DNA of 64,000 nt from Sphingobacterium sp. CZ-2 (GTDB taxonomy: Bacteria; Bacteroidota; Bacteroidia; Sphingobacteriales; Sphingobacteriaceae): positions 3,100,001 to 3,164,000 of the forward strand of contig NZ_CP038159.1 in NCBI RefSeq assembly GCF_004526235.1, given 5' to 3'. The translations under genes were made by a program, and so were the position numbers. This document shows, in pieces, positions 10,989 to 58,713 of this stretch (position 1 is its first letter; every line of letters starts with the position of its first letter). A model generated the notes under the pieces. The model had not been told where the DNA came from. It did no database searches and saw only the letters and a program-made list of their open reading frames with translations.

Positions 10989-11060
10989 CGTCATTGCGAG
11001 GAACGAAGCAATCTTTCGATTAGTGAAAAGATTGCTTCGTCGTACCTCCTCGCAATGACG
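10989..11060. repeat. Dispersed palindromic repeat, type B (two-arm copy)
   Basis: Inverted arms CGTCATTGCGAGG...GCAATC (10989-11013) and the reverse-complementary core at 11030-11060, which begins GATTGCTTCGTCG and ends CGCAATGACG. An extra CGCAATGACG follows at 11068-11077. The 31-base core recurs at 25,408, 36,891 (inside bioF), 53,332 and 58,683. Located between convergent genes. Confidence 0.85.
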
Positions 11061-25325: not shown

Positions 25326-25438
25326 TGTCATCCTGAGCGCAGTCGAAGGATCTGTACGGTTGTATCCGAACAGATGGTTCGACTACGCTCACCATGACAT
25401 GCTTGAAGATTGCTTCGTCGTGCCTCCTCGCAATGACG
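25326..25438. repeat. Composite palindromic repeat, type A plus type B
   Basis: A type A hairpin (25326-25399; arms begin TGTCATCCTGAGCG and end TCACCATGACA) is joined by a short linker to the 31-base type B core (25408-25438). Further CCGCAATGACGG copies follow at about 25448-25472, so the tail of B is tandemly repeated, and partial A half-sites occur at 25280-25320. The A-linker-B arrangement is the same at 53,242 and 58,601. Confidence 0.85.
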
Positions 25439-35815: not shown

Positions 35816-36451
35816 ATGAAAACCATTCTCCAAGAAATTGTTGCTGATCCCCATCTGCATGCGGCCTGGCTTAATACGCTCTCTTTTATGGAAAATGCCG
35901 GAGCCAGAAAAATTTCGGCATGCGAACATCCCATAAAGACACAGATTATCCAACTAAAACACGCCGCTGAAGAGCATCGACATGCGTATTACCTGAAAAA
36001 ACAGCTTTCCAAATTGGAGGTGAAGGGTTTTGAGGATTATGCGGATGCAAATCTCTTGGCAGCCAGGTCTTCTAAACAGTACCTTGCCCGTTTGGATCTG
36101 TTAGCCTGTCGTTATTTGAAGGAACAATTTTCCTTGGCCGATGATGATCTTAGGTATGCTGCTTATCTTTTTGTAACCTATGCGATTGAGGTTCGGGCGG
36201 ATGAGCTTTATCCGATTTATCAGGAATTGCTGAGTGCAGCTGGATCTAAGGTGAATGTGAAATCCATTATTTTGGAGGAAGAAGGGCATTTGGAAGAGAT
36301 GATCAGTCAGTTGCAGGCTTTTGATTCGGATTGGGAAAAGCATGCGCAGGAAATCTTGAAATTGGAGAGCAGTTTATTTGAATTTTGGATCGCTGAATTA
36401 AGGAAACATATTTTTCCCGCTGTGAATGAGCATGAAGGATCTTTGGGATAA
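35816..36451 (+). CDS. Ferritin-like diiron-type protein, first gene of the biotin operon
   Basis: 211 residues, nearly all helical. Metal-ligand pattern of a four-helix diiron carboxylate protein: E26 in SFMENAGARK; E53-H-R-H56 in AAEEHRHAYYL (ExxH); E125 or E130 in YAIEVRADELY; E155-E-G-H158 in LEEEGHLEEM (ExxH). No signal peptide. The end overlaps the bioF start by 20-26 bases, so it is translationally coupled. Family name not recognised. Inference: an O2-activating or metal-handling protein serving biotin synthesis, perhaps in making the pimeloyl precursor, since no bioC, bioH, bioW or bioI is present here. Ferritin-like storage or a hydroxylase are alternatives. Confidence 0.7.
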   Translation: MKTILQEIVADPHLHAAWLNTLSFMENAGARKISACEHPIKTQIIQLKHAAEEHRHAYYLKKQLSKLEVKGFEDYADANLLAARSSKQYLARLDLLACRYLKEQFSLADDDLRYAAYLFVTYAIEVRADELYPIYQELLSAAGSKVNVKSIILEEEGHLEEMISQLQAFDSDWEKHAQEILKLESSLFEFWIAELRKHIFPAVNEHEGSLG

Positions 36452-37598
36452 ACTGGAGGTGAGAAAGAGGCTTGGTTCTTTACGTTTCTTAAAGGAAAGG
36501 GGCGAGGGGATCGACTTTTATTCGAATGATTATTTGGGACTTTCGAGGAATCTGGGTTTTAGGGAGGAGATTGTGGAGTTGGCAAGGAATAATCCGGAAG
36601 CATTGTTGGGAGCGACAGGGTCTCGGCTTATTTCAGGAACGGGAAAGAGGGTGTTGGAAGTGGAGGATTTTATTGCGGATAAGCATGGGGTGGAAAGGGC
36701 TTTGTTGTTTCCATCGGGGTATATGGCGAATGTTGGGCTTGTTTCTAGTTTGTTGGGTAGGCATGATGTGTTGATCTGTGACGAGTATATACATCGATCG
36801 GTGATCGATGGGTGGAAGATGACGAATGCGAAACGGTTGAAGTTTAGGCATAATGATGTGAGGGATTTGGAAAGGGTGCTGGGGTGTTTGGATTGCTTCG
36901 TCGTGCCTCCTCGCAATGACGCGAGGCGGAGACGTGATGACGCGGAAGGGTCGCGCGATGGCGAGGGGCGGGCTGGCAAAATATTTATTGCGATTGAATC
37001 GCTTTATTCGATGGAAGGGGATTTCGCGCCGATCGAAGAGATTGTTGAATTGGCGGAAAAATATCAGGCTCATGTGCTGTTGGATGAAGCGCATGCTTTT
37101 GCTGTATTTGGATGGGGTTTGGCGCATCAACTTCAGCTTCAAAATCGAATACTTGCGATAACTGTTACTTATGGAAAAGCCATGGGTCTTCATGGAGCCA
37201 GTATTCTTGGAAGCAAAGACCTGATTTCCCATCTCATTAATTTTGCGAGTCCTTTTATTTACAGTACTGCCCAACCAGAATTCCATGCCTTATCCATCAG
37301 GACAGCATATGATTTCATAGCCAATAATCCAGAATTGCCTATGCGCTTGTTTGAAAACATCCGATTATTCCAATCCTTGAAAACAGGTCCAGCATCTCCC
37401 ATTCAATGTTTTTTCCCAAGTGCTGCAGCCGATCTTCAGCACATTCAAAGCAAACTTTCGGAAAATGGAATCCTAACATATCCAATTTTCCCGCCCACCG
37501 TTCCAAAAGGAAAAGAAAGAATCCGGATTTGCCTTCATGCCGATCACCAAGAATCTGAGATCCGATTGATGCAGCAGCTGCTAAACGAAACGATTTAA
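36426..37598 (+). CDS. bioF: 8-amino-7-oxononanoate synthase with an in-frame repeat insertion
   Basis: PLP enzyme that condenses pimeloyl thioester with L-alanine to KAPA. 390 residues from ATG 36426 (36432 is equally possible). Family blocks: IDFYSNDYLGLS, GATGSRLISGTGK, FPSGYMANVGLVSSL, FRHNDVRDLERVL, IESLYSMEGD, LLDEAHAF, and the PLP lysine near residue 251 in TYGKAMGLHGAS. Between FRHND and ESLYS residues about 156-184 are a foreign, Arg/Asp-rich stretch: they begin CFVVPPRND, translated from the type B repeat. That site is a surface loop region in the family, so activity may be kept. Base composition changes sharply near 37,100. Confidence 0.88.
   Translation: MSMKDLWDKLEVRKRLGSLRFLKERGEGIDFYSNDYLGLSRNLGFREEIVELARNNPEALLGATGSRLISGTGKRVLEVEDFIADKHGVERALLFPSGYMANVGLVSSLLGRHDVLICDEYIHRSVIDGWKMTNAKRLKFRHNDVRDLERVLGCLDCFVVPPRNDARRRRDDAEGSRDGEGRAGKIFIAIESLYSMEGDFAPIEEIVELAEKYQAHVLLDEAHAFAVFGWGLAHQLQLQNRILAITVTYGKAMGLHGASILGSKDLISHLINFASPFIYSTAQPEFHALSIRTAYDFIANNPELPMRLFENIRLFQSLKTGPASPIQCFFPSAAADLQHIQSKLSENGILTYPIFPPTVPKGKERIRICLHADHQESEIRLMQQLLNETI
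36891..36921 (+). repeat. Type B repeat core inside bioF
   Basis: The 31-base core (GATTGCTTCGTCG... ...CGCAATGACG) is identical to the copies at 25,408 and 53,332, here in a coding sequence and in frame. A GC-rich tail to about 36,979 (including a GTGATGACGCG segment) probably belongs to the same insertion. It adds about 28 residues to BioF. Confidence 0.88.
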
Positions 37599-37599
37599 A

Positions 37600-38226
37600 A
37601 TGAACATAAAACCCAGACAATATTTTGTAACCGGTATAGGTACTGGCGTCGGAAAAACCATTTGTTCCGCGATGTTAGCCCAATTATGGCAAATGGCCTA
37701 TTGGAAGCCTATTCAATCTGGCGACCTTGAGCAGTCGGATTCCATGATGCTGAACCATTTATTAGATCATAAAATCCAGATTTTTAAGGAAAGATTTAGA
37801 CTCCATACTGCCGCATCTCCGCATCAGTCGGCATTTTTGGATGGCATCGAAATGCATTTGGAAGATTTCGAATTGCCAGACAAACAGATCGACTTATTGG
37901 CCGAAGGGGCAGGTGGATTATTTGTGCCCATCAATGATAAAGAATGTATCATCGATCTTATCAAAAAATTGGCAATTCCAGCCATTCTGGTTTGTAGGGA
38001 TTATCTAGGTGCCATAAACCATAGCCTTTTAAGCATAAAAGCCCTGGAAAACCATCAAATCCCTTTACACTATCTGGTGCTAAATGGGGAGTTCAATCCC
38101 TTTAGTAAGGAAATCCTTTTGAAACATATGCCAGAAAATTGCAGGTTGATCCAATTACCTGAAATAGAGGAGTTAAATGCAGCACATATGCAGCATGCCC
38201 TCTCCAAAATAACCATTGAAAAATAG
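37600..38226 (+). CDS. bioD: Dethiobiotin synthetase
   Basis: Closes the ureido ring of DAPA with CO2 and ATP. 208 residues. P-loop GIGTGVGKT at 12-20, then YWKPIQSG (34-41, substrate lysine), and EGAGGLFVPIND (101-112), the Mg/DAPA region. It begins 2 bases after the bioF stop. The adenine-recognition segment (LVLNGEFNP) is near 158-166. Part of the bioF-D-B-A transcript. Confidence 0.94.
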   Translation: MNIKPRQYFVTGIGTGVGKTICSAMLAQLWQMAYWKPIQSGDLEQSDSMMLNHLLDHKIQIFKERFRLHTAASPHQSAFLDGIEMHLEDFELPDKQIDLLAEGAGGLFVPINDKECIIDLIKKLAIPAILVCRDYLGAINHSLLSIKALENHQIPLHYLVLNGEFNPFSKEILLKHMPENCRLIQLPEIEELNAAHMQHALSKITIEK

Positions 38227-38244: not shown

Positions 38245-39243
38245 ATGAACAACATGAATGAAAATATGCTGAAACATGATTGGACCAAAGAAGAGTTGTT
38301 GGCCATCTATAACCGACCGTTGATGCAATTGGTTTTTGACGCAGCAACTGTACATCGGCAATGGCAAAAGCCGGATGAGGTGCAGATTTCCACCTTACTG
38401 TCCGTAAAAACTGGCGGATGTCCGGAAGACTGTTCCTATTGTGGACAGGCTGCAAGGTACCATACCGATATCAAAGTTCAGGCCTTATTGCCAACAGAGA
38501 CGGTATTGGCGCATGCCCAAAAAGCGAAGGATGCCGGTTCATCCCGTTTTTGTATGGCGGCTGCTTGGCGTGAAGTGCGCGACAACCGGGATTTCGATCG
38601 TATCATTGATATGGTCAAAGGGGTCAATGAGATGGGGTTGGAAGTTTGCTGTACTCTTGGTATGTTGACCGAGAGCCAAGCTCAAAGGTTGCAGGAGGCT
38701 GGACTTTACGCTTATAACCATAACCTGGATACTTCGGAGGAATTCTATGATGAAATCATTTCCACGCGCAAATTTGATAATCGCTTGGAAACCATAAAGC
38801 ATGTCCGTAAGGCAGGCATCACCGTCTGTTCTGGTGGGATCATCGGATTGGGCGAAACGATAGATGATCGGGTTTCCATGCTTCGTAGCTTAGCGAATAT
38901 GGAAAAGCATCCGGAATCCCTGCCGATCAATGCCTTGGCCCGGGTAGCCGGAACGCCATTGGCAGACCTCCCAAGGATTGATATCTGGGAAATGGTGCGA
39001 ACAATTGCTACCGCTAGGATCGTAATGCCAGCCTCTATGGTGCGTTTGAGTGCTGGGCGCATCGAAATGTCCGAAGTGGAACAGGCATGGTGTTTTATGG
39101 CCGGTGCAAATTCCATTTTTACCGGAGAAAGGCAAACCTTATTGGTAACTCCCAATCCTGGTGTTTCCGAAGATATGCAGATGCTGCAGAATTTGGGATT
39201 AAAAGCTATGGTATTGGATAAAAAAGAAGCATGCGCCCACTGA
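38245..39243 (+). CDS. bioB: Biotin synthase (radical SAM)
   Basis: Inserts sulfur into dethiobiotin. 332 residues. The radical-SAM cluster motif is C59-x3-C63-x2-C66 (CPEDCSYCGQAARY); the second (2Fe-2S) cluster ligands are expected at the conserved Cys residues in RFCMAAAW and EVCCTLGML and the Arg in ASMVRLSAGR; the last is clearly seen. CSGGIIGLGET is a SAM-binding block. Overlaps the bioA start by 13 bases. It depends on Fe-S supply such as the IscS/IscA pair elsewhere in the window. Confidence 0.96.
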   Translation: MNNMNENMLKHDWTKEELLAIYNRPLMQLVFDAATVHRQWQKPDEVQISTLLSVKTGGCPEDCSYCGQAARYHTDIKVQALLPTETVLAHAQKAKDAGSSRFCMAAAWREVRDNRDFDRIIDMVKGVNEMGLEVCCTLGMLTESQAQRLQEAGLYAYNHNLDTSEEFYDEIISTRKFDNRLETIKHVRKAGITVCSGGIIGLGETIDDRVSMLRSLANMEKHPESLPINALARVAGTPLADLPRIDIWEMVRTIATARIVMPASMVRLSAGRIEMSEVEQAWCFMAGANSIFTGERQTLLVTPNPGVSEDMQMLQNLGLKAMVLDKKEACAH

Positions 39244-40493
39244 TAGACCGGGATCTGGCTGTCAATTGGCATCCCTATTCCCAGATGAAATTGAGTCATC
39301 CCATCCCGATCATTAAGGGCGAAGGTGCCTATCTATTTGCTGAGAATGGACAAAGGTACTTGGATATGGTCTCTTCCTGGTGGGTCAGTATTCATGGACA
39401 TGCCAATCCAACTATTGCAAATGCGGTATTCAATCAATTGAACACCTTAGAACAGGTTATTTTTGCAGGTTTTACGCATGAACCAGCCATTTTATTATCC
39501 GAAAGGTTATTGAATCTGTTGCCTAGCAATCTGCAAAAGGTGTTTTATTCGGATAATGGCTCCACGGCGGTAGAAGTTGCCCTGAAAATGTGCCTTCAAT
39601 TAGGCAATAATCTAGGCAGGCCGAAAAATAAAATACTGGCATTTAAAGAAGGATACCACGGTGATACCTTTGGAGCCATGTCGGTCAGTGAAAGAGGACA
39701 ATGGACTGCTCCTTTTTCCGACAAACTTTTCGACGTGATCTTTATAGATCCGCCAACCTCATTGAATTTGGAACAGACGAAAGTTTTAATTCGAGAACAT
39801 GCAGCAGAAACCGCATGCCTGATCTACGAGCCGCTGATCCAAGGAGCAGGAGGGATGTTGATGCACAGTGCTGAAGATCTGTCAGATCTGATGACCTTTT
39901 GTAGATCTTTGGGTATTCTTTTGATCCAGGATGAAGTTTTTGTGGGATTTGGAAGAACAGGGACCTTATTTGCCGCCGATCAGTTAAGTGTTGCTCCGGA
40001 TGTGATGTGCTTTTCTAAGGGACTTACAGGAGGGACCATGGCCATGGGCATCACAACTTGTACGGATGAAATCTATCAAGCATTTTATTCCGATGAGAAG
40101 CAGAAAGCGCTCTTTCATGGTCATTCTTTTACAGCAAGTCCGATTGGCTGTGCAGCAGCATTGGCAAGCTTGGATATCCTATTGTCTGCTGAATGCCAAC
40201 AACAGCTGGACAGCATTCATAAAAAGCATCTTGCTTTTCTAGGTAAGTTGATGCTGCATCCGAAGGTTCAACAGCCTCGATTGATGGGAACAGTCCTGGC
40301 TTTTGAATATCATACCGCAGAACAGGATGGCTATTTCCATAGCAGGCAGGAATTCCTTTACCAAGAATTTCTAAAGAGAAATATCATCATGCGGCCTTTG
40401 GGAAATACCATTTATCTGGTGCCACCTTATTGCATAAAGGAAGAAGAGCTGGAATACGTTTATGACATGATATTGGAAGTCCTAGATTGTTGA
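39231..40493 (+). CDS. bioA: Adenosylmethionine-8-amino-7-oxononanoate aminotransferase
   Basis: Converts KAPA to DAPA using S-adenosylmethionine as amino donor, with PLP. 420 residues. The start region WHPYSQM is the BioA substrate signature. Further blocks: SSWWVSIHGHANP, YSDNGSTAVEVALKM, KEGYHGDTFGAMSVS, QDEVFVGFGRTG, and the PLP lysine K263 in CFSKGLTGG. Last gene of the operon; its final bases overlap the convergent gene 40482-41366 by 12 bases with no terminator between. Confidence 0.95.
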   Translation: MRPLIDRDLAVNWHPYSQMKLSHPIPIIKGEGAYLFAENGQRYLDMVSSWWVSIHGHANPTIANAVFNQLNTLEQVIFAGFTHEPAILLSERLLNLLPSNLQKVFYSDNGSTAVEVALKMCLQLGNNLGRPKNKILAFKEGYHGDTFGAMSVSERGQWTAPFSDKLFDVIFIDPPTSLNLEQTKVLIREHAAETACLIYEPLIQGAGGMLMHSAEDLSDLMTFCRSLGILLIQDEVFVGFGRTGTLFAADQLSVAPDVMCFSKGLTGGTMAMGITTCTDEIYQAFYSDEKQKALFHGHSFTASPIGCAAALASLDILLSAECQQQLDSIHKKHLAFLGKLMLHPKVQQPRLMGTVLAFEYHTAEQDGYFHSRQEFLYQEFLKRNIIMRPLGNTIYLVPPYCIKEEELEYVYDMILEVLDC

Positions 40494-45135: not shown

Positions 45136-45528
45136 AATGCATATCTATTAACTTCAATTACTGCTAATAAATATACAAATTTTCAAAGAAAATTGATCTT
45201 TATTCTTTTGTTAACCAGCAAGGATTCAGATTGATGCAAACGAAAATGTAGATTTTTCATTACAAGAATATCTTATTTGACCCTTGAACATAATAAATCT
45301 TTTTTACTTGGATTTTTTGGAGTAAAAATTGCTATTGATTTTTTATATACAACCACATTTTCACTACTTAAGGAAAACACAAGTAAAAGTCAGTCCCAAA
45401 AGGGCTGACTTTTTTTTATACATTAGAAATCCATTAAAACGCTATTACAATTCCATAAGATGCTCATTAGAAACATGTTAATTTCCTTTTTTGATTAATT
45501 ATTTAACAATTAATTAATCATCAAATTG
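45136..45528. other. Divergent intergenic region with an orphan terminator
   Basis: About 390 AT-rich bases with no plausible gene. It contains an orphan forward terminator at about 45,385-45,419 and hence a possible short transcript (listed separately). The rightward gene's -7 box follows at 45,529. Confidence 0.5.
45335..45419 (+). ncRNA. Candidate small RNA ending at an orphan terminator
   Basis: A forward-strand intrinsic terminator (AAAAGTCAGTCCC, AAAA loop, GGGCTGACTTTT, then a T run; one bulged T) stands at about 45,384-45,419 with no forward gene in the 290 bases before it. A short transcript starting near 45,335-45,360 would explain it. The start is a guess; no exact TAnnTTTG box was found. 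Not related in sequence to the tandem units at 896-1154. Confidence 0.35.
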
Positions 45529-53241: not shown

Positions 53242-53362
53242 TGTCGTGCTGAGCGTAGTCGAAGCATCTGTACGGTGGTATGGTGGTATACGAACAGATC
53301 CTTCGACTTCGCTCAGGATGACATGGGGGAAGATTGCTTCGTCGTGCCTCCTCGCAATGACG
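53242..53362. repeat. Composite palindromic repeat, type A plus type B
   Basis: Type A hairpin (53242-53323) with the arms separated by a loop that carries GGTGGTATGGTGGTATACG, joined by ATGGGGGAA to the type B core (53332-53362). A degraded CCTCCTCGCTATGAGAG follows at 53373. Same order and linker as at 58,601-58,713. Confidence 0.88.
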
Positions 53363-58163: not shown

Positions 58164-58400
58164 AGGCTTAATCCGGTAGATGTTGAGGATTTTGCTCGCC
58201 GAAAATACAATTAATTAGTTTAATAATGTTTAATAAGATTGAATAATGTTGTTAAATAAAGTTTATAATAGTTTGGGAAAGTATAGATTTTATAGATAAG
58301 AAAAGAAATAGTAAGAATAATTAATTTTGTGATTAAAAAATGCCGTTTGGGTTGGTGGGTTTATCCTTAGGAGTAAATTTTGTGTTGGAAATGTTACAAT
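58164..58400. other. AT-rich region upstream of the susC-like gene
   Basis: About 240 bases, very AT-rich, no gene. It must hold the susC/susD promoter; on the reverse strand TATTTTCG at about 58,202-58,209 is a weak -7 box. No regulator binding site recognised. Confidence 0.4.
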
Positions 58401-58598
58401 TGGGGGGGGTGGGAAGGATGGGATGGGAAGGGAAGGGAAGGAAAGGGAAGTGGATGGAAGGGAAGGGAAGGGATGGAGGTTGGAGAGAAAAGGTAAGGGG
58501 TAAGGATGGGGATGGAAGAGTGGGAAAGGGATGGAATGGAAGGGGAAGGGACGGTAAGGGGTGAGGGAGGCTGGAGAGTGAACGGGATGGGTCGGGGA
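58401..58598 (+). repeat. Polypurine low-complexity tract
   Basis: About 200 bases that are almost only G and A on this strand, built from GGGAA, GGGATGG and GGAAGG units, opening with a G8 run. Open frames across it on both strands are repetitive and not genes. G runs of three or more are closely spaced, so G-quadruplex or triplex formation is possible. Confidence 0.85.
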
Positions 58599-58600
58599 GT

Positions 58601-58713
58601 TGTCATGCTGAGCGTAGTCGAAGCATCTGTACGGTGGTATACGAACAGATCCTTCGACTTCGCTCAGGATGACATGGGGGAAGATTGCTTCGTCGTACCT
58701 CCTCGCAATGACG
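58601..58713. repeat. Composite palindromic repeat, type A plus type B
   Basis: Type A hairpin (58601-58674, arms TGTCATGCTGAGCG... and ...GCTCAGGATGACA), linker TGGGGGAA, and type B core (58683-58713). Nearly the same as the copy at 53,242-53,362. It directly follows the polypurine tract and precedes the M48 peptidase stop. Confidence 0.88.

Follow-up and report, generated by a model that had tools for sequence, protein, structure and literature searches.

The bioF gene of Sphingobacterium sp. CZ-2 raises the question of how a dispersed palindromic repeat came to be read in frame within a biosynthetic enzyme, and of what the base composition around the copies of this repeat may mean. The window (the whole stretch of DNA analysed, 64,000 nucleotides) holds the gene on its plus strand, with the following features:

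36426..37598, plus strand: bioF, 8-amino-7-oxononanoate synthase, 390 aa, frame intact (ORF; TIGR00858, 271.8 bits)
36882..36974, plus strand: stretch from the conserved L152 to the conserved strand IFIAIES, with a net gain of 81 nt (27 aa) over homologues and pLDDT of about 47-52 in its middle
36891..36921, plus strand: exact 31-nt core, one arm of the repeat, translated DCFVVPPRND (pattern match)
36922..36979, plus strand: remainder of the insert, a tail rich in GC and skewed towards G, ARRRRDDAEGSRDGEGRAG (composition)

The core at 36,891-36,921, GATTGCTTCGTCGTGCCTCCTCGCAATGACG, lies wholly inside bioF, and the translation around it (...LERVLGCLDCFVVPPRNDARRRRDDAEGSRDGEGRAGKIFIAIES) bears out the reading CFVVPPRND given in the original prediction. 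Further copies in the window are found at 11,030, 25,408, 53,332 and 58,683; in the first and the last of these, base 15 is A and not G. The matches in bioF and at the four intergenic sites were all confirmed, and none of 100 dinucleotide shuffles produced a match to the core with three or fewer mismatches. The intergenic copies belong to larger structures:

10989..11060, plus strand: hairpin of type B, intergenic, built of the short arm CGTCATTGCGAGGAACGAAGCAATC and the long core (fold z = -6.5)
25326..25438, plus strand: palindrome of type A with a type B core, intergenic (pattern match, folding)
53278..53362, plus strand: arm of type A with a type B core, intergenic (pattern match)
58601..58713, plus strand: palindrome of type A with a type B core, intergenic (pattern match)

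The idea that bioF holds a full palindrome is thus only half right: its core is exact, but it has a single arm, whereas the intergenic hairpin is whole. Next to the repeat at 58601..58713 lies an intergenic stretch (58,201-58,590) with 2.3% C and G-rich, GGGAAGG-like runs, and runs of this kind also occur beside some other copies.

The genome, a single 3.93-Mb contig, contains 194 copies of the core with up to two mismatches, while the reversed core, used as a control in the same genome, gave zero matches. Exact 31-nt cores number 152 (85 + 67), and there are a further 221 copies, with at most one mismatch, of the palindrome's short arm, CGTCATTGCGAGGAACGAAGCAATC. The long core on the minus strand and the short arm on the plus strand both begin CGTCATTGCGAGG, which gives the element a CGTC end; both arms follow the pattern CGTC-AT...AT-C, with A-T complementary residues at the first two stem positions, and hold ATTGC/GCAAT together with irregular pairing. 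Five of the six frames of the core are without stops. When grouped into 143 clusters, the elements lie between convergent genes in 82 cases, between co-directional genes in 45 and between divergent genes in 6, with 10 undecided. A strand bias that the repeats seemed to show from 1.06 to 2.96 Mb proved to be an artefact.

Massive amplification of the repeat is limited to this genome among the congeners compared: the 93 congeners have at most five copies of the core each, and copies are present in 11 genomes. The core was not found in plasmids. It occurs exactly in seven IMG/VR viral contigs (L218-L224), three times within 8 kb in one of them. Like REPINs and RAYT-mobilised REPs, the elements are dispersed, paired palindromes, but unlike them they reside in a genome with no match to the Y1 transposase (Y1_Tnp, PF01797), so that mobilisation by a RAYT in cis is unsupported. 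The sole reverse transcriptase detected with PF00078 is a UG5-type defence enzyme (L295:409-2517); it was considered as a partner of the repeat and set aside, no link between the two having been shown.

The stretch of BioF that houses the core is short elsewhere. Homologues read 'LExxL-KRQxG-CYIAIES' at this site, and in an alignment of 37 of them (20 from Chryseobacterium, the remainder mostly alphaproteobacterial) the segment that joins the HND helix to the IFIAIES strand is shorter by up to 27 residues. A same-class set agrees with an insertion, and same-genus orthologues align as two blocks flanking residues 153-182. The closest BioF compared is about 53% identical, and the ends of the insert are set against homologues this distant. 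Since the insert is absent from 37 of 37 homologues and from the same-genus orthologues aligned, an ancestral BioF loop shared by relatives fails as an explanation. The extra loop that had been proposed is present, its net length being 27 aa (81 nt) and not about 28 residues. A GCTGG pair flanking the insert was rejected by eye as a target-site duplication, its spacing not being a multiple of three. Of the 94 genomes of the genus, only 30 have a BioF-like match (E<=1e-30).

The tail that follows the core had been regarded as a part of the element. Its 58 nt are indeed rich in GC (72%, compared to 41% for the window), but an origin from the repeat is unsupported. Folding hinted at an inverted second arm, and this candidate failed the shuffle test, the similarity to the inverted core not being significant (p=0.58). 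Nor do shuffles support (p=0.14) a likeness to an array of CCTCGCAATGACG units, in the form of degenerate CGCAATGACG units with 21-nt spacing (RND/RDD/RDG). Only 31 nt of the bioF insert are certain to derive from the repeat, and the origin of the tail is unproven.

With respect to the protein, an AlphaFold2 model built on a 31-row alignment has a mean pLDDT of 87.4, with the lowest values (47-52) in the insert, and the secondary structure of BioF is otherwise retained. The catalytic-type residues H123, D220, H223 and K251 are invariant in the BioF alignment, and all 390 codons are open, in agreement with the earlier statement that the frame is kept and the BioF signatures are intact. Against TIGR00858, this BioF reaches 271.8 bits, near the 294-298 of intact BioF from Chryseobacterium, the cutoff of 426 lying above all of them. 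The rest of the operon lies downstream:

37600..38226, plus strand: bioD (TIGR00347)
38245..39243, plus strand: bioB (TIGR00433)
39231..40493, plus strand: bioA (TIGR00508)

These three genes are intact and score above their family cut-offs. BioF is probably an active enzyme bearing a disordered loop of 27 residues. The contrary view holds that bioF is a decaying pseudogene, disabled by an insert too recent for stops to have built up; the repeat insertion itself and the unusual composition of the 5' two thirds of the gene would suit it, but the open frame has survived extensive substitutions in the flanks, the four catalytic-type residues are conserved and the remaining bio genes are intact, which makes decay improbable. 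That the insert is a native, lineage-specific loop resembling the repeat by chance or convergence, as the lack of a significant repeat match in the tail might allow, is barely conceivable: it is refuted by the 31/31 identity to a repeat with 152 exact copies and zero matches in shuffles, and the short loop in homologues also speaks against it.

An in-frame insertion of a repeat arm into bioF, tolerated by the gene, is therefore very likely. According to the proposed course of events, an arm of a CGTC-type palindrome, amplified in one lineage, would have entered a loop of BioF tolerant to indels, which follows the HND helix, precedes the IFIAIES strand and is outside the conserved catalytic segments. 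The insert would have survived because 81 nt preserve the frame and the core is free of stops in all frames but one of six. Recombination, or mobilisation acting in trans, would have brought the element there.

The bioF copy is one of several read in frame, at least three genes being affected. Open frames were tested across all 152 exact cores, with about 1.5 kb on each side, a survey that only partly covers the 42 cores with one or two mismatches. An exact core lies in frame in nuoN (L168:1354-2964; contig ~2,165,350-2,166,966), whose product matches TIGR01770 with 328.8 bits, just below the cut-off of 332.6. There the core is on the opposite strand and in a different frame from that of bioF, and is read as ASLRGGTTKQ followed by a Ser/Pro tail. 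The insert, of about 29 residues, is located in the loop preceding the last transmembrane helix and is absent from 25 of 25 aligned congeners, with identities of up to 74%. In a PepSY_TM protein (L331:1020-2489; contig ~181,071), it is the short arm that is read in frame, as ASLRGTKQS within a low-complexity linker. A Coq4-like ORF (L363:1572-2102) has a C-terminal tail derived from the repeat. Long ORFs over other copies (L150, L021, L188 and L207) lack a family match and look spurious. Exact cores within recognisable genes thus amount to two of 152 (bioF and nuoN) in a genome with a coding fraction of about 0.84, which indicates that copies within genes are strongly avoided or purged.

Among known systems, the closest likeness is to the CGTC-tagged REPs of Di Nocera, De Gregorio and Rocco (2013, PMC3733652). 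These are described as having no transposase of their own, as occupying mainly the intervals between genes that are convergent or co-directional and, in several species, as also present within ORFs. The present elements share with that description the CGTC end and the A-T pairs at the first two stem positions, the high copy number, the frequent pairing and the prevalence by the 3' ends of convergent or co-directional genes, as well as the lack of a dedicated transposase and the presence of some copies within ORFs. They differ from it in their core, which is 31 nt long and asymmetric inside and is joined by short arms and a type A palindrome. The likeness refers to the end, the A-T pairs and the distribution; the description further gives families 1-4, with a stem of 8-9 bp, a loop of 4-5 nt and a CCA-like tail. 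By this analogy, the bioF insert belongs with the intragenic CGTC-tagged REPs already described, and the type of insertion is not new.

The same paper (PMC3733652) classes RPE-4 and RPE-6 of Rickettsia conorii as CGTC-tagged REPs and documents intragenic CGTC REPs, making the comparison with Rickettsia palindromic elements drawn in the original prediction an apt one. A MITE review (PMC10969869) gives RPEs a length of about 150 bp and places nearly half of those of R. conorii within ORFs. The resemblance, drawn from these descriptions, consists of a palindromic repeat inserted in frame into unrelated housekeeping genes (bioF and nuoN) and absent in relatives. It stands for in-frame insertion but not for frequency: unlike the RPEs of R. 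conorii, nearly half of which are intragenic, only 2/152 exact cores here lie in ORFs and intergenic sites dominate. A search of the literature with the exact peptide and repeat strings found no relevant papers.

Most copies of the repeat also coincide with a local strand asymmetry. The strongest switches of GC skew in the window, at 11,034, 25,378, 58,815, 5,662 and 53,443, fall on repeats, and a weaker one lies in bioF, at 37,122. In the average over the 152 exact cores, the left side has a skew of 0.05-0.07 at distances above 1 kb that climbs to about 0.35 at 200-300 bp, and the right side is its mirror image (about -0.34), independently of core orientation, GC content and AT skew remaining almost unchanged. 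At fourfold sites less than 400 bp away, in genes running towards a repeat, the frequency of C is 0.09-0.10 and that of G 0.37-0.39, compared to 0.21 and 0.20 at 45,296 control sites, and the shift fades by about 1.4 kb. All three codon positions shift, A drops at position 3 too, and the loss of C is strongest after T. In genes running away from repeats, the repeat-ward strand changes in the same direction, about half as strongly; skew is 0.339 in genes running towards repeats and 0.033 in those running away, with controls at about 0.11 and -0.085, respectively.

The mean skew step is 0.46 over 142 clusters, in comparison with 0.175 over 30 convergent junctions without elements (p=6e-9), the standard deviation at control positions being 0.128, and 69% of the clusters exceed the 99th percentile of control positions. 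Every type of element cluster shows the footprint, composite clusters most strongly. At bioF it largely resembles that of the intergenic copies and takes the following form:

36001..37120, plus strand: flank rich in G and poor in C that approaches and spans the bioF core, with GC skew reaching +0.57

The skew of this left flank (0.57) exceeds the maximum of 0.43 among 1,521 control gene windows, while in 23 bioF orthologues the same flank ranges from -0.26 to +0.15. Skew turns negative from about 37,150 to 37,500; the right side is weak, and the core precedes the switch by about 215 bp, a distance at the limit of those seen at other sites. The core has retained all of its C, whereas adjacent third positions have lost most of theirs, which suggests that it may be younger than the skew, or maintained. 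At the nuoN core no footprint was found.

Neither the same core in congeners, nor related palindromes in three other genomes, nor the seven viral contigs with the core showed a skew footprint; a class-wide palindrome pattern, whose spacing is wrong for this genome, served as a negative control only. Skew tents occur at a few convergent junctions with ordinary terminator hairpins and no repeat (L228:7880, L237:6240 and L229:880). A footprint centred on repeats was not found in the open-licence literature searched, nor a local strand asymmetry in the available excerpts of PMC3733652.

A possible precedent for such an asymmetry comes from human meiotic breaks, around which an excess of C>N and A>N mutations, including C>G and A>G, is found on the forward strand on one side and its complement on the other, over 1-2 kb, a pattern attributed to error-prone filling of resected DNA (Science 2023, PMC7615360). 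Here too, C and A are lost and G is gained on the strand whose 3' end is at the repeat, and it is for this match that a reading of recurrent breakage is favoured. The human breaks, unlike this case, are eukaryotic and programmed, with mutations seen directly, while the bacterial pattern is deduced from standing composition and has no known nuclease. By this analogy, the palindromes would break recurrently, and the resected single strands would be filled in an error-prone manner, with G replacing C and A on the strand whose 5' to 3' direction points at the repeat. The repeats may thus be foci of strand-specific mutagenesis over about 1 kb on either side, through breakage and mutagenic fill-in of the resected strand, a reading held tentatively. 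Genes transcribed towards the repeat carry about twice the footprint of those transcribed away from it, a difference not expected under a pure break model.

This last asymmetry leads to the main rival, a doubtful but serious one, in which the skew arises from transcription (by R-loops or by selection on the 3' ends of transcripts) and the repeats merely favour the ends of transcription units. The higher skew of genes running towards repeats (0.339 vs 0.033) would follow from it, as would the tents at a few repeat-free convergent terminators. It fits less well with the much weaker step at repeat-free convergent junctions (0.175 vs 0.46), with the significant shift in genes running away, and with the absence of a tent at the same core in congeners or at related palindromes elsewhere. 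Moreover, the bioF site lies inside a co-directional operon and not at a 3' end, so that convergent gene ends cannot explain its footprint.

Alternatively, the repeats could insert preferentially where a switch of skew already exists. The pristine core within a C-depleted bioF and the nuoN core with no footprint point in this direction, but a skew that fades over about 1 kb, with the repeats at its centre, and is visible at synonymous sites, the proportion of clusters above the control 99th percentile (69%) and the lack of skew in bioF orthologues render such a preference unlikely.

The inserts in bioF and nuoN extend protein-coding palindromes to a member of the Bacteroidota with a 3.9-Mb genome, and provide test cases for the conversion of noncoding repeats into protein loops. 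If the footprint is mutational, as the breakage reading supposes, REP-like elements would not be passive, but would mark local hot zones of mutation that alter nearby genes and can be read from the genome sequence. The synonymous and amino-acid content of the neighbours of the repeats, bioF included, would then have been reshaped, and the repeats would represent a bacterial, repeat-anchored counterpart of break-associated mutagenesis.
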